Assembly (NCBI RefSeq): GCF_003711225.1
Contig: NZ_CP031030.1
Span: 124,001-188,000, forward strand
From: Runella sp. SP2
GTDB lineage: Bacteria > Bacteroidota > Bacteroidia > Cytophagales > Spirosomataceae
DNA: 64,000 bases
Direction of reading: 5' to 3'
Of the stretch, positions 23,607 through 46,394 are shown in pieces. The first letter of the stretch is position 1. Every line of letters begins with the position of its first letter. The notes under the pieces were generated by a model that did no database searches, was not told the origin of the DNA, and saw nothing but the letters and a program-made list of their open reading frames with translations. Position numbers and translations under genes: made by a program.

Positions 23607-23621
23607 TTTTTGCTGTGTTAG

Positions 23622-24749: not shown

Positions 24750-24754
24750 AAAAA

Positions 24755-27339: not shown

Positions 27340-27363
27340 TTAGCTCAATTTTAAGCTTTTTAT

Positions 27364-27900: not shown

Positions 27901-27930
27901 TTAGTGTTCTTGTTATGTGAATACATTATT

Positions 27931-29241: not shown

Positions 29242-29247
29242 ATGATT

Positions 29248-29973: not shown

Positions 29974-30014
29974 GCTAAAAAAGTGTTGTGAAATATGCCT
30001 TTTAATGAAAGAAC

Positions 30015-31184
30015 TTAATTATCCAATAATGTTTTTATAAAGTTGGTGTATCTATCTCCATAAAGTGTCCATTCTAATTTATTGAATGCTGTTTGAGCTG
30101 CTTGTTTTTGCATATATTCAAGTTTATTTTTATCATAAAAGAGCGCTTCTATATGAAATTTAATAATATCTGAATCCCTAATTGGAATTATAAAACCTGA
30201 AAGTTGATCTTCAATAACATCTTCACCACCAGTATTTTTGCTTGCAATTACTGGTAACCCACAAGCTAACATCTGTGGTATGACTCTTGATAATCCTTCT
30301 TCAATTGAAGGTTGTATTCCTACATCACATTTAGAGATGTAAGAAGGGAGAAGGTTATGTTCAATAAATCCAAAGTGAATCCAGTTTTTTTTCTTATGTT
30401 TTTCAAAAATAGGTCTCAATTCATCGGATAATCCACCAATGAACCATACTTCGAAATCATCATCTGGAATATTTAATTTATTTAGTGCTTCGAACATATA
30501 AATAAGTCCTTTTCGAACTCCCATATGTCCTAAGTATAAAATGCGAAATTTATCGTCAAATTTTTTAGCAATATTTATATTATTAAAAAGGTTACTTACT
30601 CCATATGGGTTGTAAAAAAGTTTATTTTCGGGTACTCCATAATCAATAAATGAATTCTTTACAAATAACGAAGGTACCGATATAAAATCGGCTTCTTGAT
30701 ATTCTTGAAGCTCTTTCTCGATAACTCTTACATTAATTTTGTAATCTATACCGAGTTGTTTTTTATATTCTTGATTTAAGATTTTATTTTGGTATAAAAT
30801 ATGAGATGAACCACGCTCTAAAATTACTGTTTTTTTTTGTTTTTTTATTTTTTTTATTGTATGCAACGACATGCCACTCCAACCAATAAAAATTTGAAAG
30901 TTTTTGTTGGTTTTGCTTAGGACTTGAGAAACATACATATCAAATAGTTCATTAAATTCATATTCAAACTTCGGTGCTAATTTAAGCCCAATGGCAATAG
31001 GTAGAAGTGTTTTTATCTTTTCTACAGGAATATTTTCATTATCTTTACGATGATGAAATGAACTAAAAACTCGATTTTTTTGTGAATGAAAACTAGTATA
31101 AAGAGATGTTAAAAGTTCATTCTTTGCTAACTGTTCAGCTAAATCATATGAATGAAATTTCGTAGTGCATGACACAATAACCAT
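30015..31184 (-). CDS. Family 4 glycosyltransferase
   Basis: A 389-residue GT4 enzyme with normal length for the family. The acceptor half has VIVSCTTKFHSYDLAEQL and WSGMSLHTIKK; the donor half starts with FRILYLGHMGVRKGLIYM, and PSIEEGLSRVIPQMLACGLPVI is the nucleotide-sugar site, although the first Glu of the usual E-x7-E is replaced by a less typical EEGLSR pattern. It would contribute a retaining sugar transfer to the repeat unit. It begins 5 bases after the CgeB-like gene and shares its AT-rich composition. Confidence 0.9.
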   Translation of the reverse strand: MVIVSCTTKFHSYDLAEQLAKNELLTSLYTSFHSQKNRVFSSFHHRKDNENIPVEKIKTLLPIAIGLKLAPKFEYEFNELFDMYVSQVLSKTNKNFQIFIGWSGMSLHTIKKIKKQKKTVILERGSSHILYQNKILNQEYKKQLGIDYKINVRVIEKELQEYQEADFISVPSLFVKNSFIDYGVPENKLFYNPYGVSNLFNNINIAKKFDDKFRILYLGHMGVRKGLIYMFEALNKLNIPDDDFEVWFIGGLSDELRPIFEKHKKKNWIHFGFIEHNLLPSYISKCDVGIQPSIEEGLSRVIPQMLACGLPVIASKNTGGEDVIEDQLSGFIIPIRDSDIIKFHIEALFYDKNKLEYMQKQAAQTAFNKLEWTLYGDRYTNFIKTLLDN

Positions 31185-31189
31185 AGTAG

Positions 31190-32239
31190 TTAAGATACGT
31201 TAATTTTTAAATGTGTAAGTACTAGTTTACATAAGTCTTCATTCCCAGTTTTAAGTTTTCTAACTTTCTTCATACCTGCCTCTCTAATTTTTTCTCTAAG
31301 TACTGAATCTTTAATTAGGGTGTGATAAATTTGACTACATTCATCTATGTCTTTCCAGAAAACTGCTTCTTCCATTTCCTTGTACATTGATAGGTGGTCA
31401 CTTGTCCGTTCGGCACACAAGAGGCCACCCGCATATGGAACTTCTAATGAACGTTGCGTGTGGTTATCCCGGTTTCCTTTGGATAATAAGCCAAGTACTA
31501 ATTTTGCACCTTGAATTGCAGCAACATAATCCCTACCCTGTAATGCACCCCCACGAAAATAAGGCGTCAACTCTCTCCAATATGGCGATTTTGGCCATCG
31601 GTCTCCCCAAACACTTACATTGACGCCCTTTTTAGCAAGGTCTAAAATAAATCGATCGCGCCCTTCATCTTTAATCCAAGTGCCAATAAACGCGATGTCA
31701 GATTTGAATTTTTGAGGTATATCAGAGTAGTTTTCAAAAGGTGCATGGGCTACTTCGTCATAGGAACGCCATACTTGAATAACGTTTTTTAGTCCTTTTT
31801 TCTTTACCAAGTCTTCGTAGGTACTATCTCTAACAACTACACAAACATCATACTCAGGCAGTGCTTTTAAAAGTAATTTAAATCTATTGCTATCACGCCT
31901 TCCTGTGGGGTCATCGTTGTTATACAATACTACTGGAACTTTAAGTGATTTTAGAATAGTTAGTGCTTTTGGACCTATTAACTCACCACTATCAACCCAT
32001 ACTAAGTTAATTGATGGAAGCTTTGTTAATTGTAATTTCAACCAATTCTCAATGTTTTTTTGAAAAAATAAATATCCTGTGTAATAGTGAATACGCCCCC
32101 ACAATGGATTTGAAAATACAGACTGAAAAACATTAAAGGGGTCTATAGGAATTACATTCGCACCTATTCTTTCTAAAGCTTGAGATCTATGAAACGAGGT
32201 CATAGCTGGTCTTAGATCTCCAATGTATAAAATGTTCAT
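31190..32239 (-). CDS. CgeB-like glycosyltransferase
   Basis: A 349-residue GT-B protein of the CgeB/Glyco_trans_1_2 group. Features are MNILYIGDLRPAMTSFHRSQAL at the start, LYNNDDPTGRRDS, SDIAFIGTWIKDEGRDRF at the start of the donor domain, and VPYAGGLLCAERTSDHLSMY with the motif typical of the group. Its members glycosylate spore coats or surface glycans; here it should add a sugar to the exopolysaccharide repeat. It overlaps the third Wzi gene by 4 bases, so it is co-translated. Its composition is less AT-rich than that of the genes downstream. Confidence 0.88.
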   Translation of the reverse strand: MNILYIGDLRPAMTSFHRSQALERIGANVIPIDPFNVFQSVFSNPLWGRIHYYTGYLFFQKNIENWLKLQLTKLPSINLVWVDSGELIGPKALTILKSLKVPVVLYNNDDPTGRRDSNRFKLLLKALPEYDVCVVVRDSTYEDLVKKKGLKNVIQVWRSYDEVAHAPFENYSDIPQKFKSDIAFIGTWIKDEGRDRFILDLAKKGVNVSVWGDRWPKSPYWRELTPYFRGGALQGRDYVAAIQGAKLVLGLLSKGNRDNHTQRSLEVPYAGGLLCAERTSDHLSMYKEMEEAVFWKDIDECSQIYHTLIKDSVLREKIREAGMKKVRKLKTGNEDLCKLVLTHLKINVS

Positions 32240-33726
32240 TTACTTATATATTTTCTAAAACTAAAACTAGCTCCAAATGTATTGGGTAAAAGTTCACCAT
32301 CATCAAAAGATAAAGCCATCTTTAGAACTATATCTTTATGTTTTTGTGGCTGGTTTTGAAATTCTAGTAAACTTGAAAATTGGTTGACGTTTTTTTCATA
32401 ACTGCCATCATTCCTAAGGTTAAAATAATGACGACTAGGAGAAACTCTAAATAAAATTGTATTTTTCTTTCCAAAAGATACTTGACTACTTACATGTAGT
32501 GCGGTGACACTATTGCTATTAATTTTCATATACCCCCCTTCTTCATAACTTCCTCTGAGATTAACCCATTCGGGACGGGTATCATTTCGATATGTAATAA
32601 ATGGTGTTCCAATAATATGATTTCGATATGTCCAGCCGTCCATATATTGAGAGTTATTGAAATAGTCGTTTCCATGATAGGTATTTATTATTGAGTTATA
32701 AAATAAACCCTGATCTAAGGTAGTAAGGTATTCAATAATAAAGTTCGTTACAGCCAATTTTGAAGTTTTGGGCGATTTGTTTCTCCAACTGATTCCGTAA
32801 AGCCCATCCGGAAAATTACCAAAAACTCCAGGCATATTTTCGATTGGATGTTGATAATAGGCTAACCACGTACTTCTTAAATTTTGATATTCAAATAAAG
32901 CCTCTAGAGTCCCTAAATGATTCCCAACTCGATTTTCAGTATCAAAGGAGGACAATCCAGTAGATTGGGGAAATTTTTGAGCTGAAATGACATATAAAAA
33001 ATCTTTAAGTGAATGAGGTAAGTCCCCATTTGGTGCAACTCTGCCACTCCCTATCAAAATAGCGCTATTGCCGCCCCATTGCGCAAAATGAGATATGCCA
33101 GTATAGAGATGTATTGAAGAACGAGGTTTGCCAAACTTCAAATAAAAACTTTTCTGATGCAAATAATAATTTTGAGCCCATGTTTCATGGCCAAACCATC
33201 CGTGACCTATTTGTGCATGAATTGATAAAAAACCATTTGTAAAATGGAGAGGTAAAAAACCATTTGTACTTAATTGAATTTTAGGAATTGGGAGGGCATT
33301 CCCTGAGTAAATATAGAACCCAGAACTCATAGAACTATCGCCAAGACCAATAATTTCTCTAAAACGACCTACCCGAAATACTAGACCTTTGTATTCCGCA
33401 TCGATGTGTAAGTTAGGGATATAAATTGATGAATTTTTGTTTTGAACAACACTTGTACTTATTTGCCCAATCCATCTTATCTTACCATTTCGTATCCAAT
33501 TCGCTTCAAGATTAACAAAACCCAAAGGAGAATCTGAGGGAACAGTTCCGTTTTTGTTGACACGCAGCCAGAATGGTGTTTGTGTTTGGGGTGTAATAAT
33601 TCCCCCCATCTCTACAAATGCGCTGGCGGAATGCTTTTTCGTAGTGTCATTGTGAAACAATGCCTTTGAAAAACCGATATTTGCTAGTGAGCAAGTAAAT
33701 AATAAAAGATATATATAGCGAAACAT
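32236..33726 (-). CDS. Wzi-type capsule assembly outer-membrane protein (copy 3)
   Basis: A 496-residue Wzi family protein. The signal peptide MFRYIYLLLFTCSLANI begins at the ATG at 33726; the longer frame begins with a TTG at 33810 and would lie upstream of a promoter box. Shared Wzi stretches are PFWLRVNKNGTVPSD, SGFYIYSGNALPIPKIQLS, YYLHQKSFYLKFGKPR, HFAQWGG and RVGNHLGTLEAL. It is the first gene of the 13-gene glycosyltransferase operon. That position suggests it was matched to the polysaccharide made by the operon, while copies 1 and 2 may serve another or all polymers. Confidence 0.9.
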   Translation of the reverse strand: MFRYIYLLLFTCSLANIGFSKALFHNDTTKKHSASAFVEMGGIITPQTQTPFWLRVNKNGTVPSDSPLGFVNLEANWIRNGKIRWIGQISTSVVQNKNSSIYIPNLHIDAEYKGLVFRVGRFREIIGLGDSSMSSGFYIYSGNALPIPKIQLSTNGFLPLHFTNGFLSIHAQIGHGWFGHETWAQNYYLHQKSFYLKFGKPRSSIHLYTGISHFAQWGGNSAILIGSGRVAPNGDLPHSLKDFLYVISAQKFPQSTGLSSFDTENRVGNHLGTLEALFEYQNLRSTWLAYYQHPIENMPGVFGNFPDGLYGISWRNKSPKTSKLAVTNFIIEYLTTLDQGLFYNSIINTYHGNDYFNNSQYMDGWTYRNHIIGTPFITYRNDTRPEWVNLRGSYEEGGYMKINSNSVTALHVSSQVSFGKKNTILFRVSPSRHYFNLRNDGSYEKNVNQFSSLLEFQNQPQKHKDIVLKMALSFDDGELLPNTFGASFSFRKYISK

Positions 33727-33759
33727 GTAAACAAAATTAAGGACAATAAAGTCGCTAAC

Positions 33760-33767
33760 CAAAAATA
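33760..33767 (-). promoter_or_regulatory. -7 promoter box of the glycosyltransferase operon
   Basis: Minus-strand TATTTTTG is a perfect TAnnTTTG match. Transcription near 33754 would give a 28-base leader before the ATG at 33726. No clear -33 element is seen. The operon from here to 20324 has gaps of at most 41 bases. Confidence 0.55.
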
Positions 33768-33783
33768 GGGACGAATATTTACA

Positions 33784-33791
33784 TAACTTTG
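33784..33791 (+). promoter_or_regulatory. -7 promoter box of the FkbM gene
   Basis: TAACTTTG on the plus strand is a perfect TAnnTTTG match, 16 bases from the divergent -7 box at 33760-33767. It would give a leader of about 80 bases to the ATG at 33878. Confidence 0.45.
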
Positions 33792-33877
33792 CCGTGTTAA
33801 AGCTTAGCAATTGGTAGCTGATGTAGGTATGTAAAGTTCCAATGCTGAGTAAATAAAATTATTAAAAACAGTTAGAA

Positions 33878-34747
33878 ATGATACGTTTTTTGGTGGGAAT
33901 ATTACAACATCCCCTAGGTGGAATTGAAGGTATTATGCGCTTTGTGCGCTGGCAAGTTGGGCAGGTGCTGGTACCATATCCAGTTATCTACAACTTTACA
34001 GAGCACTCCAAGGTATTATTGAAAAAGTCTATGACAGGTATGACTTATAATTACTATTGTAAGCTACAGGAGTTTAATGACATGCTTTTTGTTCTACATT
34101 TTTTAAGAGAAAACGATTTGTTTGTTGATATTGGTGCAAATGTGGGGAGTTACACACTTTTGGCATCTAAGGAGGTTGGAGCAAGAAGTGTTTCTTATGA
34201 GCCAATTGAAAGTACTTGGCAGATACTGGAATTTAATGTAAAACTAAATAAAATTGAGCATCTTGCCACAATCAAAAAAATCTGTGTAGGCTCAACAGTT
34301 GGTCACGTCAAGTTTACTAAGAATCTTGACACGATGAATCATGTATCAATAAATGAAAATGAGGAAAATACTGTTGAAGTTCCTATTGATACCCTTGATA
34401 ACCAGCTAGAAAATGAGAACCCAATATTAATAAAAATTGATACAGAAGGGTATGAAAAAGAGGTACTTAAAGGAGCTCAGTCTACTCTTAAAAAAAGCAC
34501 ACTACAAGCCATAATTGTAGAGATAAATGGGTCTGATAAAAAGTATAATTCATCTAGCAATGAGGTAGTTGAGCATTTGAGGAAAGCGGGATTTAGACCA
34601 GTAGCATATAGTCCAATCGAACGAAAACTAACTCTAGTAGAAAATCTTACTACAAATGGGAACACTATTTTTATCAAAAATATAGAATTGATTCAAGAAA
34701 GAGTTCGTACAGCGAATGTGTTTTCTGTTGGAGAAAGACGTTTCTAG
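33878..34747 (+). CDS. FkbM-family methyltransferase
   Basis: A 289-residue S-adenosylmethionine-dependent methyltransferase of the FkbM family, with LFVDIGANVGSYTLLA as cofactor motif, SYEPIESTWQILEFNV as motif II, and ILIKIDTEGYEKEVLKGA near the end. The N-terminal 80 residues, including YPVIYNFTEHSKVLL, resemble acceptor-binding parts of longer FkbM proteins. It is transcribed away from the large operon by a facing promoter and ends 15 bases before the convergent GT4 gene. It probably adds an O-methyl group to the surface glycan and could be controlled apart from the main operon. Confidence 0.88.
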   Translation: MIRFLVGILQHPLGGIEGIMRFVRWQVGQVLVPYPVIYNFTEHSKVLLKKSMTGMTYNYYCKLQEFNDMLFVLHFLRENDLFVDIGANVGSYTLLASKEVGARSVSYEPIESTWQILEFNVKLNKIEHLATIKKICVGSTVGHVKFTKNLDTMNHVSINENEENTVEVPIDTLDNQLENENPILIKIDTEGYEKEVLKGAQSTLKKSTLQAIIVEINGSDKKYNSSSNEVVEHLRKAGFRPVAYSPIERKLTLVENLTTNGNTIFIKNIELIQERVRTANVFSVGERRF

Positions 34748-34762
34748 GTTGAAAAGTTGTGG

Positions 34763-35947
34763 CTATCTTAGGTTGTTTAACAAATTTTGAGCACTCTCTT
34801 CTATACTATATTTTTGAATTAGGTTAGTTCCCCACTCTAAGTTGTGATTAAACTCTGAAAGTATTTCTAAACACTGAGCTAGCTGTTCGTCTTGACTCTC
34901 GTTGAAAATTTGAACCCTTGGCCAATCGCTAAAATTAGCACAACAACCAACGGCATTAGAAATAGCTATGCTACATCCTGCTTGTATAGCTTCATTGACA
35001 ACTAAGCCCCAAGTTTCCCCCATCCTTTTTGAGGGAAGAACTAAAATGTCCATCAAAAGGTAATGACTGCCAATTTGTGATTGATTAACAAATCCTGCAA
35101 ACGTTGTGTTTATGCCCCAATCCTCGTATGCTTTTTTAGCTTCATTTTCTAATTGAGCACTCAGTGGTCCATTACCGACAAAATATAAATGAAGCCGTTC
35201 ACGAATATGGGGACTAATATGCTTTAATGATTTATAAATCAACAAAGGGTCTTTCTTTTCAATAAACTTTCCTGAGAAACCTATTACAATTTGAGTATTT
35301 AATAAATGATGTTCAGCACGACCCTGTGCTCGTATTTGTTCTTTTTCTAAAGTTGTAAATTGCGAATATCGATTGACTGTACAATATAAGGCAGGTGATA
35401 ATAATTTAGACGATACTCCATGAGACAAATAATGTTCCTTATTCAGGTTGCCTATATAAAAAAAACGGTTGATACCTTTATATGCAATTGTGTAGGCTAA
35501 ATATCTGAGATACGATTTGGTTTTGGTTCTGGTAAAAGCATAGTCTTGTGTTTCTGTGCGTAGCCAAATTGGAATACCCTTTAGAAGAGCATAAATTAAA
35601 GCCGCCCATTCATAGCGATAGTTAAGACCAGTTAGTAAAATAGCATCAGGCGATATTTCGTCAATAATACCCTTGACGCCTTTCTCAGTTAAAGAGCCCC
35701 AGCCATTTAGAGGATTACCTTTTTCACTATTTAAAATAGTATAAGGATACCCATCTAATAATGGCTCATCCCAAGAGAAAGTTAATCCAAAGTCTTTGTC
35801 TTCATGTCCTTTGACTGAGCAATCCGAAGCATAAGCAACATGAATACTACCAGGTGCAAGTTGGTGCATTTTTCTCCAAAGTGGAGCCCTGTACTGTACA
35901 GGGTGGGTATCAAAAATGAGTAATTTTTGGTTGACTTTCGAAAACAT
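34763..35947 (-). CDS. Family 4 glycosyltransferase
   Basis: A GT4 enzyme of 394 residues from the ATG at 35947. This start is chosen because LLIFDTHPVQYRAPLWRKM, the usual N-terminal strand, follows at once; an ATG at 36034 would add 29 residues. The donor half shows VIGFSGKFIEKKDPLLIY and PSKRMGETWGLVVNEAIQAG with the E-x7-E type site. The N-terminal half (YPYTILNSEKG) is like transferases found in exopolysaccharide clusters. It is a lone minus-strand gene between two plus-strand genes, so it must have its own promoter, which I could not identify with confidence. Confidence 0.87.
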   Translation of the reverse strand: MFSKVNQKLLIFDTHPVQYRAPLWRKMHQLAPGSIHVAYASDCSVKGHEDKDFGLTFSWDEPLLDGYPYTILNSEKGNPLNGWGSLTEKGVKGIIDEISPDAILLTGLNYRYEWAALIYALLKGIPIWLRTETQDYAFTRTKTKSYLRYLAYTIAYKGINRFFYIGNLNKEHYLSHGVSSKLLSPALYCTVNRYSQFTTLEKEQIRAQGRAEHHLLNTQIVIGFSGKFIEKKDPLLIYKSLKHISPHIRERLHLYFVGNGPLSAQLENEAKKAYEDWGINTTFAGFVNQSQIGSHYLLMDILVLPSKRMGETWGLVVNEAIQAGCSIAISNAVGCCANFSDWPRVQIFNESQDEQLAQCLEILSEFNHNLEWGTNLIQKYSIEESAQNLLNNLR

Positions 35948-36118
35948 TTTGTAATCAGTAAGGGAGCAAAATAAATTTTTTACTTCATTATGGAAGATAA
36001 AAGCAAACAAAAGGTAAAGACGAAGGTATAGCATGTTTATAATATCTCCAAAAGGGCACTAATGATAGAAGTAAAGAGGGTAATTAAAATGCAACCGATG
36101 AATAGAACAAAGGGAATG

Positions 36119-36148
36119 ATTGTATTCCTAGCTAAGTATATATATTTG
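36119..36148 (+). promoter_or_regulatory. Promoter of the thioredoxin-fold gene
   Basis: ATTG (36119-36122), an 18-base spacer and TATATTTG (36141-36148), a perfect -7 box. Transcription should start near 36154, about 40 bases before the ATG at 36195. Confidence 0.6.
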
Positions 36149-36194
36149 TACAAGGAAACATATGTTTAAACAAACCAATTATCTCTGACGACAG

Positions 36195-37442
36195 ATGAAA
36201 AAGAATAAAAGTTATCTTTGGCGTAAAATCACATTGTGTTTTTTGATGTTGGCTACCACGGTGCAAGGCCAAGGTATTCAGTTTTTTAATGGTTCATATC
36301 AAGGAGCTGTGGAAGCAGCAAGGAGAGCTAATAAAATATTGTTTGTTGAGGTTTACCTAAATGGGTGTCCTCATTGTGCAGCTCTGGCTCCAATCCTTGA
36401 AGAAAAAAAAGTTGGTGACTTTTTTAATTACCAGTTTGTAAACTTTAAACTGGAAGCAAACTCAGAAGACTCAAAAATCCTACAACAGCAAAAAGGGTTG
36501 ACATACGTTGAGTTTCCGTTGTTCTTTTTCTTCGATCCAAGAACAGGACAGTTAGTACATATGGCATTCCCAGGAGAAAGACCCAATAAAAATGAGGCTA
36601 TCGAAGAAGTACTGAAACATGGAAAAAATGCTTTAGACACAACAGAGAGAACGTTAGCCTACAGTAGCAGGTTTTCAAAAGGAGATAGAGGTTTGGCGTT
36701 TTTAATTAACTACGCAAAGTATGTCAAGAGCATGAAAGATATGGATCGTTTGGGGACGATTAACACCGAGATTGCTAAAGTAATGACTAAACCATCTGAT
36801 TTAGAGAGTAAATTGGGATTTTATGTTCTTCAACGTTTGATAGAAGACTACAAAAACCCAATGGCAGTTTACTTTTTTAACAATATTAATAAATACAAGG
36901 CAAAGTACCCCGCGAAAGAGGTTAATGATACTGGAGAGCTAATATTGTATTATACATTATATGGTAAGCGTGCTGCTCAGATGGATGTTAGCGAAATTGT
37001 TAAAATACGTCAAAATATGGTTAAACTGGGAGTAGCCCCTGCTGTTGCGAGTACCCGTACAATATTAAAGGAAATAGAGGCGTATTTTCGAGTAAAGCAG
37101 ACAGATAAAGCTACTGCTCGTTTGAACGAACACAAAAAAATGTCCTCTATGGGATTAGCTGACTATGCTTACTTAGTAAAGTATTTTAATGAACATGCGA
37201 CTGATAACACGTATGTATCGTCGTTAGTTACATGGGTAGATGCAGGCGTTAAAGCGGCAAAACCAGAAGAGAAAAAGTCGCAGCAAGTGGCAGATTTATA
37301 CTTACAGCGCTCCAAGGCTTTCCAGCGAATTGGGAAAAAAATAGAGGCAAAAAAGGATGCTCAAATGGCACTTTCTGTTGCCCAGGCGGCCAAGCTTGAT
37401 ACTAAGCCTTTCGTCGATGAACTAACGAAACTGAGCCGTTAG
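36195..37442 (+). CDS. Exported thioredoxin-fold protein with helical-repeat C terminus
   Basis: A 415-residue exported protein. A signal peptide (residues 1-25, ending VQGQ) is followed by a thioredoxin-like domain (about 28-140) with the active-site pair CPHC (58-61) in YLNGCPHCAALAPIL and a cis-Pro candidate in YVEFPLFFFF. The remaining 270 residues are predicted helical, with TPR-like stretches (LYLQRSKAFQRIGKKIEAKKDA). It should act in the periplasm on disulfides, as an oxidase, isomerase or reductase. It is the gene directly before the cysteine-rich T9SS repeat protein, which makes that protein a possible client. No DsbB or DsbD partner is in the window. Confidence 0.85.
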   Translation: MKKNKSYLWRKITLCFLMLATTVQGQGIQFFNGSYQGAVEAARRANKILFVEVYLNGCPHCAALAPILEEKKVGDFFNYQFVNFKLEANSEDSKILQQQKGLTYVEFPLFFFFDPRTGQLVHMAFPGERPNKNEAIEEVLKHGKNALDTTERTLAYSSRFSKGDRGLAFLINYAKYVKSMKDMDRLGTINTEIAKVMTKPSDLESKLGFYVLQRLIEDYKNPMAVYFFNNINKYKAKYPAKEVNDTGELILYYTLYGKRAAQMDVSEIVKIRQNMVKLGVAPAVASTRTILKEIEAYFRVKQTDKATARLNEHKKMSSMGLADYAYLVKYFNEHATDNTYVSSLVTWVDAGVKAAKPEEKKSQQVADLYLQRSKAFQRIGKKIEAKKDAQMALSVAQAAKLDTKPFVDELTKLSR

Positions 37443-37477
37443 AAACTTCCTATGTCGTGTTGTAAGTTGATTTTGTT

Positions 37478-37513
37478 AAAAAAAACTTAAAAAAATAGAA
37501 TGTAAGTTTTTTT
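37478..37513 (+). terminator. Possible AT-rich terminator after the thioredoxin-fold gene
   Basis: An 11-bp stem of AAAAAAACTTA (ending 37489) and TAAGTTTTTTT (37503-37513) with a 13-base loop ends in a T run. All pairs but one are A-T, so it is weak. Its right arm touches the TTTG of the following promoter. Confidence 0.35.
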
Positions 37514-37540
37514 GTTTTGGTGAGACTTCTCGTATTTTTG
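37511..37540 (+). promoter_or_regulatory. Promoter and long leader of the giant repeat protein
   Basis: TTTG (37511-37514), an 18-base spacer and a perfect TATTTTTG box (37533-37540). Transcription would begin near 37546, leaving a leader of about 257 bases to the ATG at 37803. This 360-base gene-free stretch (37443-37802) also holds a 17-codon open frame starting at 37612 and two short stem candidates (CTTAC/GTAAG near 37670 and CTTGCC/GGTAAG near 37685-37710); no known riboswitch was recognised. Confidence 0.6.
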
Positions 37541-37802
37541 TGAGTCTTATGTATGAAAGGTGAAGTTAAATCCAAATAGGGTTACTGCCTGAATTTACTG
37601 AACCTTAAACTATGTTGCATTTATTTAAAACAATACGACCAAGAAACAAAGGAACCCCTAACTGAACTTACTGACATGTAAGCTCTTGCCAGTGGGAGTG
37701 CTCGGTAAGGCTCTAATTAAACATTATCATCCCTCCCCATTGGATGTTAATAGAAAAATTCACAAAGTGCTTTTTGTGGGGAAAAGCAATAAACAAATCC
37801 AA

Positions 37803-40800
37803 ATGAAACCAATCAAAACTTTACTTTCGTTTTGTGTTGTGCTGATGGTGGCGATGGGTGCATGGGGGCAAGTTACAAGTATTACTGCTCCTGCAATACC
37901 CGCTGGACAGCAATGCGTTGGCGCCACCATCGTACCTCCAAGTAGCCCAACAATAGTTGCTAGTGGATGTGCTGGTGAAGCTGTCTTCTTGCAACTATTT
38001 GAAGCAGACGGTACCGAGCTTGCAGTAGGATCCGCTGGGAGTGTCCCAGGAGGAGCTGCTGGTTCGGTTGTTATCCCAGCCGCTGCCTTAGGCAAAACCG
38101 TCTATTATCGCTATGTTACCAAAGGAACAACTGCAGGTTGTGCTTTTAATGGTACAGCCACTCCTTTGAACAACAACACTGTTGTTGCAACTCCTACGAA
38201 GCCAACGATTGTGGCTCCGATTCCGTCGATTTGTCACTTGGAAACACAAAAGACCTTGGCAGAATTTGGAGCTCCAAATGTGTATGCAAATTGTACGTCA
38301 GGAACATTGACTGTTGCTTACATCACAGGAACTTCTCCTTGGAATACAGCAGGAGACTATACCATTGGCTATAAGTGCGTTTCTGGAGTATGTGAGTCTC
38401 CAATCGAAACTACAACGTTTACGGTTAAAAATCCGTTGAATGCTCCAATTTTTGTTAAGAATATTCCTAGCATTTGTCCAGGGGAAGACCAGTTGACTGT
38501 TGAAGAAGTTGAAGCAGGCGGATTTGCGTCATGCGCAGCTGATCCTGGTTCTGTATTGAAAGTAATCAGTGGCCCACTTAGCAACACTACTTCAGGTGCA
38601 GTACAATTTATCTGCGAAAGAGATGGTTGCAAATCAGGTGTGTATAGCCATTCATATACGATCTATTCAGCGACAGCTGCACCAACAGGTGTGACTATCA
38701 ATGGAGGTTCATCTGTGACTGCATGTGCATCTGCAATACCAGCTTCGTTAGTTTTTGGTGGAGATTGTGCGGGTAACAATTACAAGATTTGGAATGTTAC
38801 GACCAATACATTGGTATCAGCAGCATACACAAGTGGTTCAATAAGTCCTATACCAACATCTGGTACTACTGTATATCGTGTAACGTGTACAGACGCTACT
38901 TGCGAAAGTACAGGTGTAGAAGTAACTTACACAGTAAGCCCAGCGATTGCGAAACCAGAACTTGCTGCTGCAATTCCATCCATTTGTCATTTGGAAACAC
39001 AATTGACAGAAGCACAATTAGAAGCGCCAGGTGTTTATGCAAGTTGCGCCCCAGGTACAACACTTAACTTGGTAAGTGTATCAGGAACAGCTCCATGGAA
39101 CACAGCAGGAACCTACACTGCGATGTGGCGTTGTGAAACGAGTGCTACTTGTTACTCGGAACTGACTCAAACAACGTTTACGGTTAAAAATCCGTTGAAT
39201 GCTCCAATTTTTGTTAAAAACATTCCTAGTATTTGTCCAGGAAAAGACCAGTTGACTGTTGAGCAAGTAGAGGCTGGTGGATTTGCGTCATGCGCAGCTG
39301 ATCCAGGTTCTGTATTGAAAGTGATCAATGGCCCGCTTAGCAACACTACTTCAGGTGCAGTACAATTTATCTGCGAAAGAGATGGTTGTAAATCAGCTGT
39401 ATATAGTCACTCATATACGATTTATTCAGCAACGGCAGCGCCAACAGGTGTATCTATCACAGGTAGCCGCGCGGGAGCAACAGGCAATGGAACAACAGCG
39501 GTTACCGTGTGTTCTTCGCCTGCTACAGCAGCAACACTCGCTTTCGCAGGTGATTGTGCAGGTAATAACTTCAAGATTTGGAATGTTACAGATAATGTAT
39601 TGGTAACAGCGTCTTATTCTGGACCAATTACAGCTCCTACAAAAACTACTGAGTACAAAGTAAGTTGTACAGATGCTACTTGTGAAAGCACAGGTGTAAC
39701 AGTAACTTACACAGTAAGCCCAGCTATTGCGAAACCAGTACTTGCCGCTGCTATTCCATCTATCTGTCATTTGGAAACACAAAAGACGGAAGCAGAATTG
39801 GAAGCTCCAGGTGTTTACGCAAGTTGTGAGCCTGGTTTTACACTTAATTTAGTAAGTGTATCAGGAACAGCTCCATGGAACACAGCAGGAACATACACTG
39901 CCATGTGGCGTTGTGAATCAAGTGCTGATTGTTACTCAGAATTGACGCAAACAACGTTCATTGTTAAAAACCCGTTAAGTTTGCCAATTTTTGTTAAGAA
40001 CATTCCTAGCATTTGTCCAGGCGAGAAGCAGTTAACTGTTGAAGAAGTTGAAGCAGGTGGGTTTGCATCATGCGCAGCTGATCCAGGTGCTGTTTTGAAA
40101 GTGATTAATGGACCACTTAGCAACACTACTTCAGGTTCGGTACAATTTATCTGTGAAAGAGATGGTTGCAAATCAGGTGTATATAGCCATTCATATACAA
40201 TCTACTCAGCGACAGCAGCACCAACAGGTGTGAATATTAATGGAGGTTCATCTGTTACTGCATGTGCATCTTCATTGCCAGCTTCGCTTACTTTTGGTGG
40301 AGACTGCGCTGGTAACAATTACAAGATTTGGAATGTTACAGATAATGTATTAGTAACAGCGTCTTATTCTGGACCGATTCCAGTACCTTCTAAAACGACC
40401 GTATATCGTGTGACGTGTACAGATGCTACTTGCGAAAGCACAGGAGTAGAAGTAACGTTTACATTGGGTTCTGGTGTTGCCAAACCAACACTTGTGAAAG
40501 CTATTCCTTCAATTTGCCATTTGGGTACTCAGTTGACTGAGGCGCAATTGGAAGCAGCAGGTGTTTATGCAAGTTGCGAAGCTGGTGCAACTCTTAATTT
40601 AGTAAGTGTATCAGGAACAGCTCCTTGGAACACCGCGGGAACATACACTGCAATGTGGCGTTGTGAAGTAAGTGCTACTTGCTACTCAGAATTGACGCAA
40701 ACAACATTTATTGTAAATTCACCGATGGCTACGCCTACGCTTTCAGCTTCGGCAACAACAATTTGTGCTGGTGAAACTGTTACATTTACAGTTGGTCATA

Positions 40801-42893
40801 CTTGCCCATCAACAGCTACTTTGGAGCTTTATAAGAACGATACTATCTTAGTTGCTTCTAAGGCTGCGGGTACGTCACCTGCAACGATTGGATATGCAGC
40901 TACTACAGGTACATATAAAGTGAAGTGTATGTTCGATAAGTGCTATAGTGCGGCAAGTTCAGGTGTTACTGTTACAGCAAATGCTTTGCCTGCAGCTCCT
41001 ACATTTACGGGTGCTACTCCATTGCAACCAAGTGCAGTTTGTGCAAATACTAGTGTAGGTGGTGTATTATTAAATACATTAACTTGTGCAGTAAATACAC
41101 AGGTACTTGTATGGTATGATAAAGATAATCTTGTTGTACCTCAGCCAAATACTCAACCAGCTGCTACAACAACTTGGACTGTCTCGTGCCGTAACACAGT
41201 AGGTAATACGTGTGAAGGCCCTCGTACTACGGTAGTTTTCACAGTTAATCCTCAAGGTAGTACTCCAACTGGAGTATCTTTGACTGCAGAAGGTACTACG
41301 GTTAATGTCGGCCAAGATAAAGTTATTTGTAGCACAACTGGTGCCGCAATTACCTTTACTGGTTGCCCATCGGGTGAAACTATGCTTGTAAGTGTAGATG
41401 GAAATGTTTATTCTGCAACTATACCATCAGTGGTTACAGATGGTATTAAACACAACTATCGCGTTCGTTGCCAAGCTGGTTCAGGCGCTTCAGCTTGTGA
41501 TGGACCTGAGTCAGGTGTTATGAGTTTAACAGCATATCCAGTATTGACTACAGCTCCAACTGCAAATGTTGTTCCTGCTGTTGTATGTAGTGCATCTGCT
41601 CCAGTTGCATTCGGTGGAAGCTCAAGCTGTGGTGCTTTGGCAACTGTATGGTTCGATGCAACGACAAATACTCAGTTGCTTTCATTGCCATCAATGACTC
41701 CAACTACTCCTGGTACATATTCTTACTATGCTAAGTGTGTGAATGGTGGTGGATGTATGAGCCCAGCGAGTGCGACTACGTCGTTGACAGTGGTTGGTAA
41801 TTCAATGGCTCCAACGATCACTTCAATAGGTGGAACAGAAGTATGTACTGGTGTAAACGTAACACTTACTACTAACTGCCCAGCAGGCTCTGTTGTTAAG
41901 TGGAGTACAGGTGATACTGGTAATGCGTTGCCATTGGTATCGGCTGTGCCACAAGTACGTGCCGTAACTGCGAAGTGTGCAATCACTGTAGGAAGTACAA
42001 CTTGTGAGTCTCCAGTAAGTGCTACTACTACAGTAGTTTGGAAAACATTCGATATTACAATTATCAATATCGGTTCTCCACTTTCAGGGGTTAAGCCTGG
42101 CTCAAACGTACCAAAATCTGCTTGGGCAGCTAACTTTGTAACTGTTGATGCAGGTCCATCATTGCAAAGCAGCTCACAAGGTAATCCTTCAGTATTCTTC
42201 ACTGAGAATCCTAACAAAGGAGCGGATCGTTTCTGGACTGTACACGTTGAGTCATGTGCTTTGGGAACAACAGGTGCTATTTCTTACGATATGTTAGTGA
42301 CACCAGAAGCTGGTGTACCATACTCGTACAACACTGTTGAAAACAATGCACCATACTTGATGTATGCTAACCGTGATGGTTTCACAGAATTGTATGCGCA
42401 CAACCACGGAGCGTATGGCTTTACAAGTGAGCCTAAGTACACTCAAGGCTTGCCAAAAGGTTTGTACAAATTGAGCATCCGTTACTGGAGCGAAAAAGGT
42501 ATGGGGCTTTACCCAGCCGTACGTACAGCTCAAGGTACACAATTGGCATACCAAGAGTACTGGTTCCGTATCCAATCACAAAATGGTATCGGTTCAGGTG
42601 CAGCTCGTGAGGGCGTAACTGAAAATACTGAAGCTCCATTCGTGACAATGGGTCAAAACCCAGTAACTCGTACGTTGTCATTGACAATCAACGGTGCTAA
42701 AGGTCAAGATGTGAAGTTGAACTTGGTTGACGCCTCTGGCCGTTCTATCAAAGTTTCTTCAGTAACTCCTGAAACTAACACTCACCGTGAAGAAATCGAC
42801 ATGACTAGCCAAAATACTGGTATGTACTTCATCCAAGTTAGCACTCCTTCTAAGCGTGCATCTTTGAAAGTATTGAAAGTATCTCAAGACTAA
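37803..42893 (+). CDS. Giant cysteine-rich repeat protein with T9SS sorting tail
   Basis: A 1,696-residue secreted surface protein I cannot assign to a named family. The signal peptide (MKPIKTLLSF, cleavage near AWGQ) begins at the ATG at 37803; the longer frame starts with TTG. Residues about 133-973 form 3.3 tandem units of 250-260 residues, each made of three blocks marked by IPSICHLET, NIPSICPG and DCAGNNYKIWNVT, with paired cysteines in each. About five more Ig-like cysteine-containing domains follow, then a region of about 200 residues (GLYKLSIRYWSEKGMGLY) and a type A T9SS tail with QNPVTRTLSL, LVDASGR and GMYFIQV. It is probably exported by T9SS and anchored to the cell surface, as an adhesin or coat component. 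It lies beside the polysaccharide export genes. Confidence 0.85.
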   Translation: MKPIKTLLSFCVVLMVAMGAWGQVTSITAPAIPAGQQCVGATIVPPSSPTIVASGCAGEAVFLQLFEADGTELAVGSAGSVPGGAAGSVVIPAAALGKTVYYRYVTKGTTAGCAFNGTATPLNNNTVVATPTKPTIVAPIPSICHLETQKTLAEFGAPNVYANCTSGTLTVAYITGTSPWNTAGDYTIGYKCVSGVCESPIETTTFTVKNPLNAPIFVKNIPSICPGEDQLTVEEVEAGGFASCAADPGSVLKVISGPLSNTTSGAVQFICERDGCKSGVYSHSYTIYSATAAPTGVTINGGSSVTACASAIPASLVFGGDCAGNNYKIWNVTTNTLVSAAYTSGSISPIPTSGTTVYRVTCTDATCESTGVEVTYTVSPAIAKPELAAAIPSICHLETQLTEAQLEAPGVYASCAPGTTLNLVSVSGTAPWNTAGTYTAMWRCETSATCYSELTQTTFTVKNPLNAPIFVKNIPSICPGKDQLTVEQVEAGGFASCAADPGSVLKVINGPLSNTTSGAVQFICERDGCKSAVYSHSYTIYSATAAPTGVSITGSRAGATGNGTTAVTVCSSPATAATLAFAGDCAGNNFKIWNVTDNVLVTASYSGPITAPTKTTEYKVSCTDATCESTGVTVTYTVSPAIAKPVLAAAIPSICHLETQKTEAELEAPGVYASCEPGFTLNLVSVSGTAPWNTAGTYTAMWRCESSADCYSELTQTTFIVKNPLSLPIFVKNIPSICPGEKQLTVEEVEAGGFASCAADPGAVLKVINGPLSNTTSGSVQFICERDGCKSGVYSHSYTIYSATAAPTGVNINGGSSVTACASSLPASLTFGGDCAGNNYKIWNVTDNVLVTASYSGPIPVPSKTTVYRVTCTDATCESTGVEVTFTLGSGVAKPTLVKAIPSICHLGTQLTEAQLEAAGVYASCEAGATLNLVSVSGTAPWNTAGTYTAMWRCEVSATCYSELTQTTFIVNSPMATPTLSASATTICAGETVTFTVGHTCPSTATLELYKNDTILVASKAAGTSPATIGYAATTGTYKVKCMFDKCYSAASSGVTVTANALPAAPTFTGATPLQPSAVCANTSVGGVLLNTLTCAVNTQVLVWYDKDNLVVPQPNTQPAATTTWTVSCRNTVGNTCEGPRTTVVFTVNPQGSTPTGVSLTAEGTTVNVGQDKVICSTTGAAITFTGCPSGETMLVSVDGNVYSATIPSVVTDGIKHNYRVRCQAGSGASACDGPESGVMSLTAYPVLTTAPTANVVPAVVCSASAPVAFGGSSSCGALATVWFDATTNTQLLSLPSMTPTTPGTYSYYAKCVNGGGCMSPASATTSLTVVGNSMAPTITSIGGTEVCTGVNVTLTTNCPAGSVVKWSTGDTGNALPLVSAVPQVRAVTAKCAITVGSTTCESPVSATTTVVWKTFDITIINIGSPLSGVKPGSNVPKSAWAANFVTVDAGPSLQSSSQGNPSVFFTENPNKGADRFWTVHVESCALGTTGAISYDMLVTPEAGVPYSYNTVENNAPYLMYANRDGFTELYAHNHGAYGFTSEPKYTQGLPKGLYKLSIRYWSEKGMGLYPAVRTAQGTQLAYQEYWFRIQSQNGIGSGAAREGVTENTEAPFVTMGQNPVTRTLSLTINGAKGQDVKLNLVDASGRSIKVSSVTPETNTHREEIDMTSQNTGMYFIQVSTPSKRASLKVLKVSQD
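38199..38951 (+). repeat. Coding tandem repeat, unit 1 (753 bp)
   Basis: First full A-B-C unit of the giant protein, residues about 133-383, starting at the KPT codons before IPSICHLET. Its A block is the most diverged copy; its B and C blocks are close to those of units 2 and 3 at base level. Confidence 0.8.
38952..39731 (+). repeat. Coding tandem repeat, unit 2 (780 bp)
   Basis: Second A-B-C unit, residues about 384-643. Its C block carries an insertion of about ten residues (around SRAGATGNGTTAV) that units 1 and 3 lack, which explains its greater length. Confidence 0.8.
39732..40481 (+). repeat. Coding tandem repeat, unit 3 (750 bp)
   Basis: Third A-B-C unit, residues about 644-893. The A and B blocks match unit 2 over long base-level stretches with scattered, mostly third-position changes. 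The B block replaces NPLNAP with NPLSLP. Confidence 0.8.
40482..40721 (+). repeat. Coding tandem repeat, partial unit 4 (A block only)
   Basis: Only the A block (residues about 894-973, IPSICHLGT to TFIV) is present before the repeat pattern gives way to unrelated Ig-like domains. The right end is approximate. Confidence 0.7.
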
Positions 42894-42916
42894 TCGTCGA
42901 GACGATTCATACGAAC

Positions 42917-42949
42917 GAAAGCCCCGCAACTTGCGGGGCTTTCTGTTTT
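42917..42949 (+). terminator. Terminator after the giant repeat protein
   Basis: A perfect 11-bp stem, GAAAGCCCCGC (42917-42927) with GCGGGGCTTTC (42933-42943), a 5-base loop and TGTTTTT after it. It lies 24 bases after the stop codon. Confidence 0.85.
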
Positions 42950-42955
42950 TAGTAC

Positions 42956-42986
42956 TTGTAAACTATCCGAAACCCCACTACCTTTG
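42956..42986 (+). promoter_or_regulatory. Promoter of the polysaccharide export genes
   Basis: TTG (42956-42958), a 20-base spacer and a perfect TACCTTTG box (42979-42986). The transcript should start near 42992, which leaves 42 bases to the ATG at 43034 but only 9 to the GTG at 43001. Confidence 0.6.
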
Positions 42987-43033
42987 TAGGGGCGTTTTTA
43001 GTGAAACGCCAGTTAATAAACCTATTGAAATTC

Positions 43034-45337
43034 ATGCGTTTTAGAAAGTATTGTTGGGTATCCCTTCTGTTTTTAATATGTCATTTCGCGTATTCACAAG
43101 CATTGCCAGCTGCGGACGAAGTGACCGATGCACAATTAGAAGAATTTATCAAAGTGGCCCAAAGCAAGGGCTTATCACAAGCTGAACTAGAAGCAGGGGC
43201 ATTGGCAAGAGGCTATAGTGAAGCGGATATTGCAAAAATTCGGGCTAGAATTAACACCCTAAAAGTAAAAACGGAAAGTTCTACTCCTACGAATGTGAAT
43301 AATACCGTTCGTCAGCAACAGGGGCAGGTTTCAGAAAAAACACCAACTCCCGTAGGCAATGACCAAGAAGTTGGGAAAAAGAAGGATGTATTTGGGGCGC
43401 AACTATTCTCTAATAAGTCGTTGTCGTTTGAGCCAAATTTGCGATTACCAACTCCTAAAGATTATATTTTAGGTCCAGATGATGAACTTCGAATAGACAT
43501 CACTGGATATGCATATCAGCATTACGATGCAAGGGTCTCGCCTGAAGGGACGATTAAAATAGAAAGCTTGAGTCCTTTGTCTGTGAATGGTTTGTCAATA
43601 GAACAAGCAAAGAGTAAAATTATTGAACGTTTAAAAATCCTCTACGCAGGACTTAGAAATGGAACGTTGAATGTAGATGTGACTTTGGGAAATGTGAGAA
43701 GTATAAAAGTAACTGTCATTGGTGAGGCCACTAATCCTGGAACATTCACGGTTTCTTCATTAGCGACGGCGTTCCACGCACTTTATTTATGCAGCGGCCC
43801 TAATGGGAATGGCTCAATGCGGGAAATACAAGTACTTAGGAGCAACAAGGTCATTCAAAAGATTGATTTATACGAGTTTTTGATGAAAGGTACACTATCA
43901 GAGAATATCAATTTGAGAGATCAGGACGTCATTTTGATACCGATAGCAGCTAAAAAGGCAGAGATTGAAGGGGAAGTAAAAAGAAGTGGGACGTTTGAGT
44001 TGAAGACCAATGAGAATTTTGGGGAGCTATTACGTTATGCTGGAGGTTATACCGAGCAATCGTACCAAGCGTCGGTGAATGTATATCGTAACACGCCCAA
44101 AGAAAGACAATTGATAACATTTGACCCAATCGCTCAAAGCCAATTTAGCCTTCAAAATGGAGATAAATTGGTGGTTGGGACGATTTTAAACCGCTTTGAA
44201 AATAAAGTAGAAGTCGTCGGTGCTGTTTTTCGTCCAGGGGAATTTGCTTTAAGTGATGAAATCAAGACGGTAAAACAACTGATTAAAAAAGCGGAAGGAT
44301 TGCGGGAAGACGCCTTCCGTAACAGGGCGGTATTGAAAAGAAAACGTGAAAATTTGGACCCTGAATTGATTCAAATTAATTTGGATCAATTGTTTAAAAA
44401 TGAAGGGGAGGATATTCTACTCAAACGAGAAGATGTGTTGGTCATCAAGTCGATTTCGGAAACTCGTCAAGTACAAACTGTAGGAATTCAAGGTGCCGTA
44501 AATAGTGGAGGTGTGTTTGATTTTGCAGAGAAAATGACCTTGCAAGATTTGATATTGCTGGCGGGAGGTTTTACGGATGGAGCTACTGGAAAAGGGATTG
44601 AGTTGTCGCGTCGTTTGTATAATGATGAAACCAAAAGTGAAACAGTGGAAGTAACTAAATATGATATTTCTAAGGAGTTAAGCGAAGTTTCTACCATTGT
44701 GCTAAAGCCCTATGATGAGGTAATCGTGCGGAGTTTACCTAATTATTTACCTCAACAATTGGTGAGTATAAAGGGACAAGTGCTTTATCCAAGCACCTAT
44801 GTAATTGCAAACCGTGAAGAACGAATTAGCAATCTAATTGAACGTGCTGGAGGCTTTCGCGAAGAAGCCTATCTACCAGGCATTCAATTCACAAGAAATG
44901 GTCGCTTAATTGCAATGGATATTACCCAAATTTTGAAGAACCCAAAGCACTCTAATAACCTTTTGCTGTTGCCAGGGGATGAGCTTATAGTTCCTAAAAT
45001 ACCAGAAACTGTCACAATCAATGGTCAGGTATTTAACCCAAATGTGGTGGCATTTAACCCTAAGTTTAGCTTTAAAAGTTACATTACCCAAGCAGGAGGA
45101 TTTACAGATAGTGCTCACACAGCGAAAGTATACGCGGTTTATTCTAATGGGTTGACTTCTCGCACTAAGAAATTTCTGGGAATGAAATTTTATCCAAAGG
45201 TGGAACGTGGAATGCAGGTGTATGTACCTACGCGTCCCAAGAAAAATCGTCTAAATTCAGCAGAACGGCTATCCTTATTTACAGGTTTAACGTCGGCAAC
45301 TGTCTTGATTATCACTTTAATTAGAACACTAAACTAG
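43034..45337 (+). CDS. SLBB-domain polysaccharide export protein (Wza-like)
   Basis: A 767-residue exported protein that should form the outer-membrane or periplasmic channel for exopolysaccharide. It has a signal peptide (MRFRKYCWV through FAYSQ), a helical segment, then a polysaccharide export domain (LPTPKDYILGPDDELRIDITG) and about five SLBB repeats (for example VTVIGEATNPGTFTVSS, VEVVGAVFRPGEFALSD, VSIKGQVLYPSTYVI, VTINGQVFNPNVVAF). A single hydrophobic helix (LFTGLTSATVLIITLI) is at the C terminus, unlike E. coli Wza, which is much shorter. The ATG at 43034 is preferred over a GTG at 43001 on promoter spacing. It is co-transcribed with the Wzz-like gene 10 bases downstream. Confidence 0.93.
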   Translation: MRFRKYCWVSLLFLICHFAYSQALPAADEVTDAQLEEFIKVAQSKGLSQAELEAGALARGYSEADIAKIRARINTLKVKTESSTPTNVNNTVRQQQGQVSEKTPTPVGNDQEVGKKKDVFGAQLFSNKSLSFEPNLRLPTPKDYILGPDDELRIDITGYAYQHYDARVSPEGTIKIESLSPLSVNGLSIEQAKSKIIERLKILYAGLRNGTLNVDVTLGNVRSIKVTVIGEATNPGTFTVSSLATAFHALYLCSGPNGNGSMREIQVLRSNKVIQKIDLYEFLMKGTLSENINLRDQDVILIPIAAKKAEIEGEVKRSGTFELKTNENFGELLRYAGGYTEQSYQASVNVYRNTPKERQLITFDPIAQSQFSLQNGDKLVVGTILNRFENKVEVVGAVFRPGEFALSDEIKTVKQLIKKAEGLREDAFRNRAVLKRKRENLDPELIQINLDQLFKNEGEDILLKREDVLVIKSISETRQVQTVGIQGAVNSGGVFDFAEKMTLQDLILLAGGFTDGATGKGIELSRRLYNDETKSETVEVTKYDISKELSEVSTIVLKPYDEVIVRSLPNYLPQQLVSIKGQVLYPSTYVIANREERISNLIERAGGFREEAYLPGIQFTRNGRLIAMDITQILKNPKHSNNLLLLPGDELIVPKIPETVTINGQVFNPNVVAFNPKFSFKSYITQAGGFTDSAHTAKVYAVYSNGLTSRTKKFLGMKFYPKVERGMQVYVPTRPKKNRLNSAERLSLFTGLTSATVLIITLIRTLN

Positions 45338-45347
45338 TACTTGATTG

Positions 45348-46394
45348 ATGAAAGAAGAGGGTTATTTAGATGAACATGAGCCAAAAGCCTTTATAAATTT
45401 GGGAAAGCTATGGGCTGTTATTTGGAAAGAAAAATGGATTATAATGTTATTGGGGCTTTTAGCTACCTTTTGTGGAGGGTACTATGCATTTTCGATTCAA
45501 GAGGAGTTTGAATCTCAAGGCAAAATTCTTCCTGAAATACCACCATCAGCTTCAGGTTCGCTAGGAAGTCTTGCAGGAGCTTTAGGCCTGAGTGGGATTG
45601 ATTTAAAAAATGCTACAGAAGCAATTCGCCCAGATTTATACCCAGAAGTGCTTAAAAGTACGACCTTTTATTTGGACTTGATGAAACAACCCGTGGTAAC
45701 TCGAACAAATCAAAAATTGACATTCGAGGAGTTCTATCACCGAGTAGTGGAAGAAAATGAGGAAATAGATACGACTTTATTAAAAAAGTTCAATGTAGAG
45801 GCCAAAGGATTTTATGTATTGAATCGCATAAACGAGAATCGTATCAAAGATTTGAGGAAGCGAATATTTAGTACGTATGATCGTAAAGCAGGGGTAATAA
45901 GTATCAGCGTCAAGTTACCTGATCCTGTAGTTGCGGCAACCGTAGCTAAATTTTCAATGGACTATTTGACAGAGTATGTAATTAATTACCGTACTCAAAA
46001 AAATAGGAGAGAGGTGGACTTCTTGGCAGAACGTTTGGAAATAGCAAGGGGTAAGTACTATTCAAATCAAGCAAAAAAAGCACAGTATAGTGACCAATTT
46101 CAGGCCAACACCATCAGGTTACAAGCTGCCGATGTTAGGCGAGAGCGAATTCAGGCAGAATACAATACGTCATCCAACTTTTATAATTCATTGTTGACAA
46201 AATACGAAGAGGCGAAAATTAAGCTTCATCAAGAAACTCCAGTTATTAAAGTACTGGAACCGCCTACAGCACCAACGCGTAAATCTGAGCCCCGTAGAAG
46301 CGTAATTGTAGCGATATCAGGCTTGATAGGTGGTTTTTTTGGGGTATTAATAGCATTAATCCGAAAGAAAAACTACAAGCAAGTATTCAATTGA
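45348..46394 (+). CDS. Wzz/GumC-like chain-length determinant without kinase domain
   Basis: A 348-residue inner-membrane polysaccharide co-polymerase. A membrane helix near residues 32-50 (IIMLLGLLATFCGGYYA) and another near 318-340 (SVIVAISGLIGGFFGVLIALI) flank a periplasmic coiled region (about 210-290) typical of Wzz proteins; the Pro-rich PPTAPTRKSEPRR precedes the second helix as usual. There is no C-terminal tyrosine-kinase domain and no separate kinase or phosphatase gene follows, so control of chain length by phosphorylation is not encoded here. The ATG at 45348 is chosen over a TTG one codon earlier. The gene ends just before a strong hairpin. Confidence 0.9.
   Translation: MKEEGYLDEHEPKAFINLGKLWAVIWKEKWIIMLLGLLATFCGGYYAFSIQEEFESQGKILPEIPPSASGSLGSLAGALGLSGIDLKNATEAIRPDLYPEVLKSTTFYLDLMKQPVVTRTNQKLTFEEFYHRVVEENEEIDTTLLKKFNVEAKGFYVLNRINENRIKDLRKRIFSTYDRKAGVISISVKLPDPVVAATVAKFSMDYLTEYVINYRTQKNRREVDFLAERLEIARGKYYSNQAKKAQYSDQFQANTIRLQAADVRRERIQAEYNTSSNFYNSLLTKYEEAKIKLHQETPVIKVLEPPTAPTRKSEPRRSVIVAISGLIGGFFGVLIALIRKKNYKQVFN

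Follow-up and report, generated by a model that had tools for sequence, protein, structure and literature searches.

Several described systems share parts of the locus analysed here. GhpA, the grappling hook protein of Aureispira sp. CCB-QB1 (PDB 9flp, 9fly, 9flu and others), is a very long protein of tandem Ig-like domains, and T9SS type A proteins with Ig_7 (CHU_C-associated) repeats combine a signal peptide, tandem Ig-like domains and a type A tail. In P. gingivalis, T9SS cargo is linked to anionic lipopolysaccharide. Capsule and exopolysaccharide loci bring together matches to Poly_export/SLBB, Wzz/GNVR and Wzi with a variable, glycosyltransferase-rich island. Processing of T9SS cargo by the PorU sortase in P. 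gingivalis has been described (PMC4804311). Among thioredoxin-fold proteins, AGR2 is described as a PDI that is crucial for the mucin MUC2 (PMC8551217).

The locus of Runella sp. SP2 lies in a 64,000-nucleotide stretch of DNA (the window), in which four plus-strand genes encode an exported thioredoxin-fold protein (trx), a giant cysteine-rich protein, a polysaccharide exporter and a chain-length determinant. The features of the locus are as follows.

20170..41817, no strand: hypervariable polysaccharide island of ~21 kb (comparison with R. limosa)
32236..33810, minus: Wzi-like capsule assembly porin within the island (Pfam match)
36195..37442, plus: exported thioredoxin-fold protein (trx), 415 aa, with signal peptide, Trx_7 domain and predicted TPR-like solenoid (ORF, Pfam, model)
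37474..37540, plus: conserved A/T-rich element and promoter-like sequence 5' of the giant (five-genome alignment)
37541..37802, plus: conserved 5' leader of the giant gene (five giant-carrying genomes)
37803..42893, plus: giant type A T9SS protein, 1,696 aa, predicted at the surface (ORF, Pfam, TIGR04183)
42039..42614, plus: 192-aa C-terminal domain (CTD) of the giant, residues 1413-1604 (common to at least 40 paralogues)
42654..42890, plus: T9SS type A sorting tail of the giant, residues about 1618-1696 (Pfam, TIGR04183)
42917..42943, plus: intrinsic-terminator-like hairpin of 12 bp, 3' of the giant gene (hairpin search)
43001..45337, plus: SLBB/Poly_export outer-membrane polysaccharide exporter (Wza-like), GTG start (Pfam)
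45345..46394, plus: Wzz-like chain-length determinant with GNVR domain (Pfam)

The order trx, giant, SLBB and Wzz, reported in the preliminary description, was borne out, with all four ORFs open at the coordinates first given. The third product scored above the Pfam cut-offs for Poly_export (PF02563, 47.7 versus 28 bits) and PF22461 (146.6 versus 27 bits), and SLBB_2 and SLBB also passed, which places it with the Wza-like export proteins. The fourth matched both Wzz (PF02706, 47.1 versus 25.5 bits) and GNVR (PF13807, 38 versus 27.7 bits), as chain-length determinants do; a search for a kinase domain in this protein gave no match. While these genes and the island recall capsule and exopolysaccharide loci, the Runella locus differs from them in having a T9SS giant and a thioredoxin gene at the island edge. 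Three Wzi-like porin genes were seen in the window (12260-13762, 13826-15274 and 32236-33810), of which those at 13826 and 32236 were confirmed by Pfam and the one at 12260 was judged by eye. Downstream, window positions 46429-50180 encode proteins of ~350 and 908 aa, both without a Pfam match; the 908-aa protein was found in 13 of 13 Runella genomes searched, at 70-100% identity. No tandem DNA repeats were reported at the locus.

Reading of the trx product confirmed the CPHC motif at residues 58-61 noted earlier. The protein scored just over the Pfam cut-off for Thioredoxin_7 (PF13899, 28.5 versus 27 bits), and C58, C61 and Pro108 are conserved in at least 85% of 41 family members, with P108 as the probable cis-Pro; the score, the CxxC motif and the conserved Pro at this position together assign it to Thioredoxin_7. 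Its best PDB sequence relative was 2kuc, a putative disulphide isomerase (3.6e-12), followed by PDIs and AGR2. These share the thioredoxin fold with the Runella protein, which differs from 2kuc and AGR2 by its CPHC motif and by a TPR-like helical solenoid at residues about 165-415, after the Trx_7 domain, in a predicted model of high confidence towards the C-terminus and low confidence in the Trx part (alignment of four rows). Membership of the DsbA family was rejected, as there was no DSBA among the Pfam matches up to E 1 and the CPHC motif alone is in common. The AGR2-MUC2 couple likewise sets a PDI beside a giant secreted protein, but AGR2 is a human ER protein and the parallel is a functional analogy only. 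The source genome has one full-length trx of the CPHC type. Elsewhere it encodes an apparent VKOR-Trx fusion, a 571-aa ORF (G000:C1:4716466-4716849, stretch L222) with peptidase C39-like, VKOR and thioredoxin-like (PYCGPC) parts, where the family match covers the VKOR part only and the other parts were assigned by appearance.

The giant has a signal peptide, the CTD and a type A sorting tail, and the T9SS tail claimed for it stands, with both Por_Secre_tail (PF18962, 30.1 versus 27 bits) and TIGR04183 (33.2 versus 23 bits) above cut-off, as expected of type A cargo. From these signals it would be exported by the T9SS and held at the cell surface. A TTG at 37686 would give a longer ORF, but at the ATG at 37803 the start region is conserved in five genomes and is followed by the signal peptide. 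Literature on Runella and type IX secretion consisted, by title, of taxonomy or species descriptions.

The predicted structure of the giant's Ig-like domains is one of tandem Ig folds. Of the solved structures, that of GhpA comes closest to the giant, both by sequence profile (5.3e-05) and by Foldseek (1.6e-22), and VIA-align of the giant with 9flu gave Z 10.4 and an rmsd of 9.8 over 307 aligned residues. GhpA has 5,898 aa against 1,696 aa in the giant, identity in the fold alignments is 14-20%, and unrelated tandem-Ig receptors (LILRB, KIR) match the giant as high as GhpA in VIA-align. The likeness of the giant to GhpA extends only to the tandem-Ig fold and a weak sequence relation, and no sign of hooks, oligomers or predation was seen. 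A viral structure library returned only generic tandem-Ig matches to the giant. Compared with the Ig_7 T9SS proteins, the window giant has repeats of its own that fall short of Ig_7 (PF19081) in Pfam, an orphan CTD, and a link to trx and the polysaccharide island. A giant related to it over its whole length, at the same locus in a pond MAG, has 19 Ig_7 matches.

The high cysteine content described for the giant amounts to 65 Cys in 1,696 aa (3.8%), which direct reading resolved into 15 complete four-Cys Ig-like modules and an N-terminal module with three Cys. A profile of these domains collected 349 copies, most in Runella giants and a few in a protein of the Runella genome G009, and 348 were long enough for scoring. 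All four Cys columns (C1 to C4) were filled in 269 domains. C2 and C3 were kept together in 289 and absent together in 59, with no sole loss of C2 or of C3 among the 348. C1 and C4 alone were present in 58 domains from 12 proteins, which are not independent as many are tandem copies within one protein (a Fisher p-value, which takes no account of this, is set aside), and C4 alone in one; C1 was absent in 11 and C4 in 9, these 20 single losses coming partly from truncated profile matches. The co-loss indicates an intradomain C2-C3 disulfide, at a spacing of about 34 residues that we take to be the usual Ig B-F position, and suggests, with less strict support, that C1 and C4 probably form a second disulfide nested around it. 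Sequential pairing (C1-C2 and C3-C4) is disfavoured because C2 and C3 are lost jointly while C1 and C4 stay. As to the question, raised at the outset, of whether the cysteines pair within a repeat block, the co-loss pattern fits disulfides inside each domain. Nested pairing is the kind of problem with which isomerases of the Dsb and PDI systems help, and the giant may pose the same problem.

The CTD recurs in at least 40 further ORFs of the source genome, nearly all of ~1,200-4,200 aa as read and some cut at stretch ends, so that the total of at least 41, counted in the stretches examined and including the window giant, is a lower bound. The paralogues lie on G000:C1 at about 0.39, 0.63, 0.75, 0.86, 1.24, 1.99, 2.79, 3.00, 3.33-3.99, 4.40, 7.13 and 7.41 Mb, with many crowded between 3.33 and 3.99 Mb. 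On a small contig (L155, G000:C3, about 44265-50000), close to where another giant ends, ORFs that look type III CRISPR-like (Cas10/Cmr-like) by eye were seen. Cysteine makes up 0.7-3.4% of the 40 paralogues read, and the window giant is therefore the most Cys-rich among them. A scan of the genome collection confined the CTD to Runella, where it is limited to one subclade (5 of 13 genomes), and among 395 sampled Bacteroidota it occurred in one, the source genome itself. The giant family is a lineage-specific expansion. By sequence the CTD had no match in Pfam or PDB and is an orphan domain; since its fold is poorly predicted in parts (pLDDT about 44-54 at model residues 700-750), we make no claim on that fold.

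An alignment of the five giant-carrying genomes revealed a promoter-like sequence 5' of the giant, TTTTG ... TATTTTTG, which resembles the Bacteroidota -33/-7 promoter, and a leader of 215-271 nt (~260 nt in the window) with a hairpin at about 37680-37714 and the core GGGAGTGCTCG from 37694. Both elements, which the preliminary description had missed, show blocks of conservation among the five genomes, despite trx identities of only 54-66%. A covariance model of the leader found one copy in each of these genomes and none in 69 others; covariation drawn from five sequences is too thin as proof of structure. In a search of the window against Rfam nothing reached the gathering score, and the best E in the leader region was 2.2, far below the cut-off of the family concerned, so that no known RNA family was matched. 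The terminator-like hairpin 3' of the giant has similar counterparts at that position in R. limosa, R. defluvii and the pond MAG. With this hairpin between giant and SLBB, and the promoter-like element and leader between trx and giant, a simple four-gene operon is probably to be rejected.

The preliminary description had proposed a search of other Bacteroidota for the pair of trx and giant. A trx orthologue stands directly before one CTD giant in all five genomes that have the giant family; in HJF.20 the contig with trx breaks off within the giant gene, and the C-terminus of a giant is found on a second contig, next to an SLBB orthologue, the two contigs probably representing one locus. The pairing is established in one Runella branch only and not as a unit that recurs across Bacteroidota, and since the five trx fall into a single clade, their adjacency to a giant amounts to roughly one event. 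An orthologue of SLBB, at 76-100% identity, is present in four of the five giant-carrying genomes and in none of the eight other Runella, which have SLBB paralogues only, of up to 45% identity. In five of these eight (G002, G003, G010, G011 and G012) a CPHC-type trx lies near rsmH/ftsI, in genomes lacking the CTD giant family, and the trx matches of G005 and G006 are of a shorter CxHC type. In G009 (L082 1-14367), a trx of the same type overlaps tail to tail with a gene for a 1,710-aa Cys-rich Ig_7 giant that lacks the CTD, and a protein of 2,180 aa made of SprB-like repeats is encoded near that pair. In three Runella that lack the giant family and were read through, the cluster adjoining this right flank is another one of SLBB-Wzz and sugar genes, and it contains no giant and no trx. 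Almost every genome of the bacterial family has a member of the trx family, usually at a locus where no such giant is present, and in related genera the CPHC type is found beside unrelated genes; these locations at rsmH/ftsI or beside unrelated genes imply another, older role. A leftover trx was sought at rsmH/ftsL/ftsI of the giant clade and none was found in the stretches read (L137, L138, L139, L153 and L154, with one contig ending nearby). The gene has thus made an apparent relocation between rsmH/ftsI and the giant locus.

The variable surroundings of the pair were delimited by comparing the source genome (G000) with the sister species R. limosa DSM 17973 and R. defluvii DSM 17976. Outside about 20.2-41.8 kb of the window the flanks are 86-93% identical to both, and inside most of the DNA is unalignable or about 64% identical. 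Against R. limosa the left edge falls at about 20.2 kb and the right edge at about 41.8 kb, within the giant gene; against R. defluvii the conserved flanks start at about 21.95 and 41.24 kb. The right edge lies in the last third of the giant gene, with the CTD and the DNA downstream conserved (save for SLBB-Wzz, which R. defluvii lacks), and the giant body, trx, the Wzi-like porin and the glycosyltransferases on the divergent side. The island is a glycosyltransferase-rich variable polysaccharide locus whose G+C content is low in part (27-35%). In R. limosa, R. defluvii and HJF.20 the immediate left neighbour of trx is a relative of the Wzi-like porin. At the R. defluvii locus (L074 7271-12022) the SLBB and Wzz genes are absent and a 250-aa ORF is found instead, and the giant gene contains a run of N in the assembly.

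The divergence extends to Trx. Among G000, R. limosa and R. defluvii, FtsI is 98% identical and Trx only 54-59%, and the three Trx are as distant from one another as from that of G007, even though the FtsI of G007 is 79-80% identical. In the clade with trx at rsmH/ftsI, by comparison, Trx tracks FtsI (84-96% for 91-99%). The five island trx form one clade in the Trx tree, inside which the sister species are not grouped together. From this divergence and the tree, trx behaves as an island allele, a behaviour that co-evolution with the giant body and hitch-hiking alone would explain equally well.

In the preliminary description trx was cast as a dedicated factor for the giant. Adjacency in five of five genomes, the cysteine co-loss and the joint variation in the island speak for such a tie, and the position of trx beside a Cys-rich giant at the island edge suggests that the two probably work together. 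The word dedicated goes too far: the trx family sits mostly at loci without a giant, so that trx is not intrinsically dedicated to it, and no CPHC-type trx adjoins the at least 40 paralogous giants. The reading we put forward, with about an even chance of being right, is that trx encodes a periplasmic Trx-TPR disulfide oxidase/isomerase whose main client would be the island's cysteine-locked Ig-rod giant. Also in favour of it are the Cys share of the window giant, above that of every paralogue read, the disulfide isomerases among the best PDB relatives of Trx, the VKOR-Trx fusion as a possible reoxidant and the trx beside an Ig_7 giant in G009. As the functional link is drawn from location and co-variation, it leaves room for trx having entered the island as a general thioredoxin of the periplasm and travelling along with no special relation to the giant. 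We consider this somewhat unlikely. Nearly the whole bacterial family carries members of the trx family at other loci, island genes diverge generally, including the Wzi-like and glycosyltransferase genes, and the adjacency of a single clade may reflect a single event; moreover, co-divergence is expected of any gene in an exchanged island, which counts against a special link. Yet in five of five island alleles trx has stayed beside the giant's leader, although the rest of the island mostly differs in its genes, conservation of the kind seen at rsmH/ftsI would be expected if Trx served the conserved proteome, and the same-type trx of G009 also adjoins an Ig_7 giant.

The client range of Trx could also be wider than one giant. 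If the single full-length CPHC-type trx of the genome served all 41 or more Cys-containing giants, its site beside one of them would mark the starting place of the family. Every giant read contains Cys, most with the same Ig-like domains, and the trx-linked giant is present in all five genomes, two of which have only three CTD matches each, so that the pairing may predate the expansion. That one Trx is shared in this way is nevertheless decidedly unlikely, given that the CTDs of several other giants have near-identical counterparts in the sister species, yet Trx differs by ~40%. The closeness of the Wzi-like, trx and SLBB-Wzz genes at the right end of the island might instead mean that Trx helps to assemble the polysaccharide machinery, with its Wzi-like porin and Wza-like SLBB protein, rather than the giant. 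This we regard as highly improbable, as SLBB has 3 Cys and Wzz none (R. limosa, pond MAG), the Wzi-like protein has 1 Cys (three genomes), and R. defluvii has kept trx and giant at a locus without SLBB-Wzz.

Under the preferred reading of Trx as a disulfide enzyme with the giant as its main client, the island would encode a polysaccharide pathway with a giant surface rod at its right edge, the rod consisting of tandem Ig-like domains each locked by C2-C3 and probably C1-C4 disulfides. The Trx-TPR protein would act on the giant in the periplasm, ahead of T9SS export, binding its client through the TPR-like solenoid and helping the Ig-like domains to reach nested pairing, and the VKOR-Trx fusion could reoxidise it. 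Once anchored at the surface, the giant may function together with the polysaccharide. A Trx found across the bacterial family would have become linked to the giant in the Runella lineage and would now diversify with it in an exchanged island. A broader version of this scheme, which we think unlikely, would make the locus a surface serotype cassette, in which sugar-synthesis genes, the giant's Cys-locked body and an allele-matched disulfide isomerase are swapped in one recombining island, the giant's conserved C-terminal part serving as the exchange edge and the RNA leader providing control.

The T9SS Ig-rod protein, the Trx-fold disulfide protein and the capsule-type locus are each of a known kind; their combination is new and is found in one lineage. 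The locus points to a big lineage-specific family of giants, with at least 41 copies in one genome and an orphan CTD, and to a leader that is conserved but matches no Rfam family. If the proposed relation of Trx and giant is true, Runella would provide a bacterial disulfide isomerase whose variation goes along with that of a single giant client and of the capsule type, in a system open to allele swaps between two laboratory strains of closely related species.
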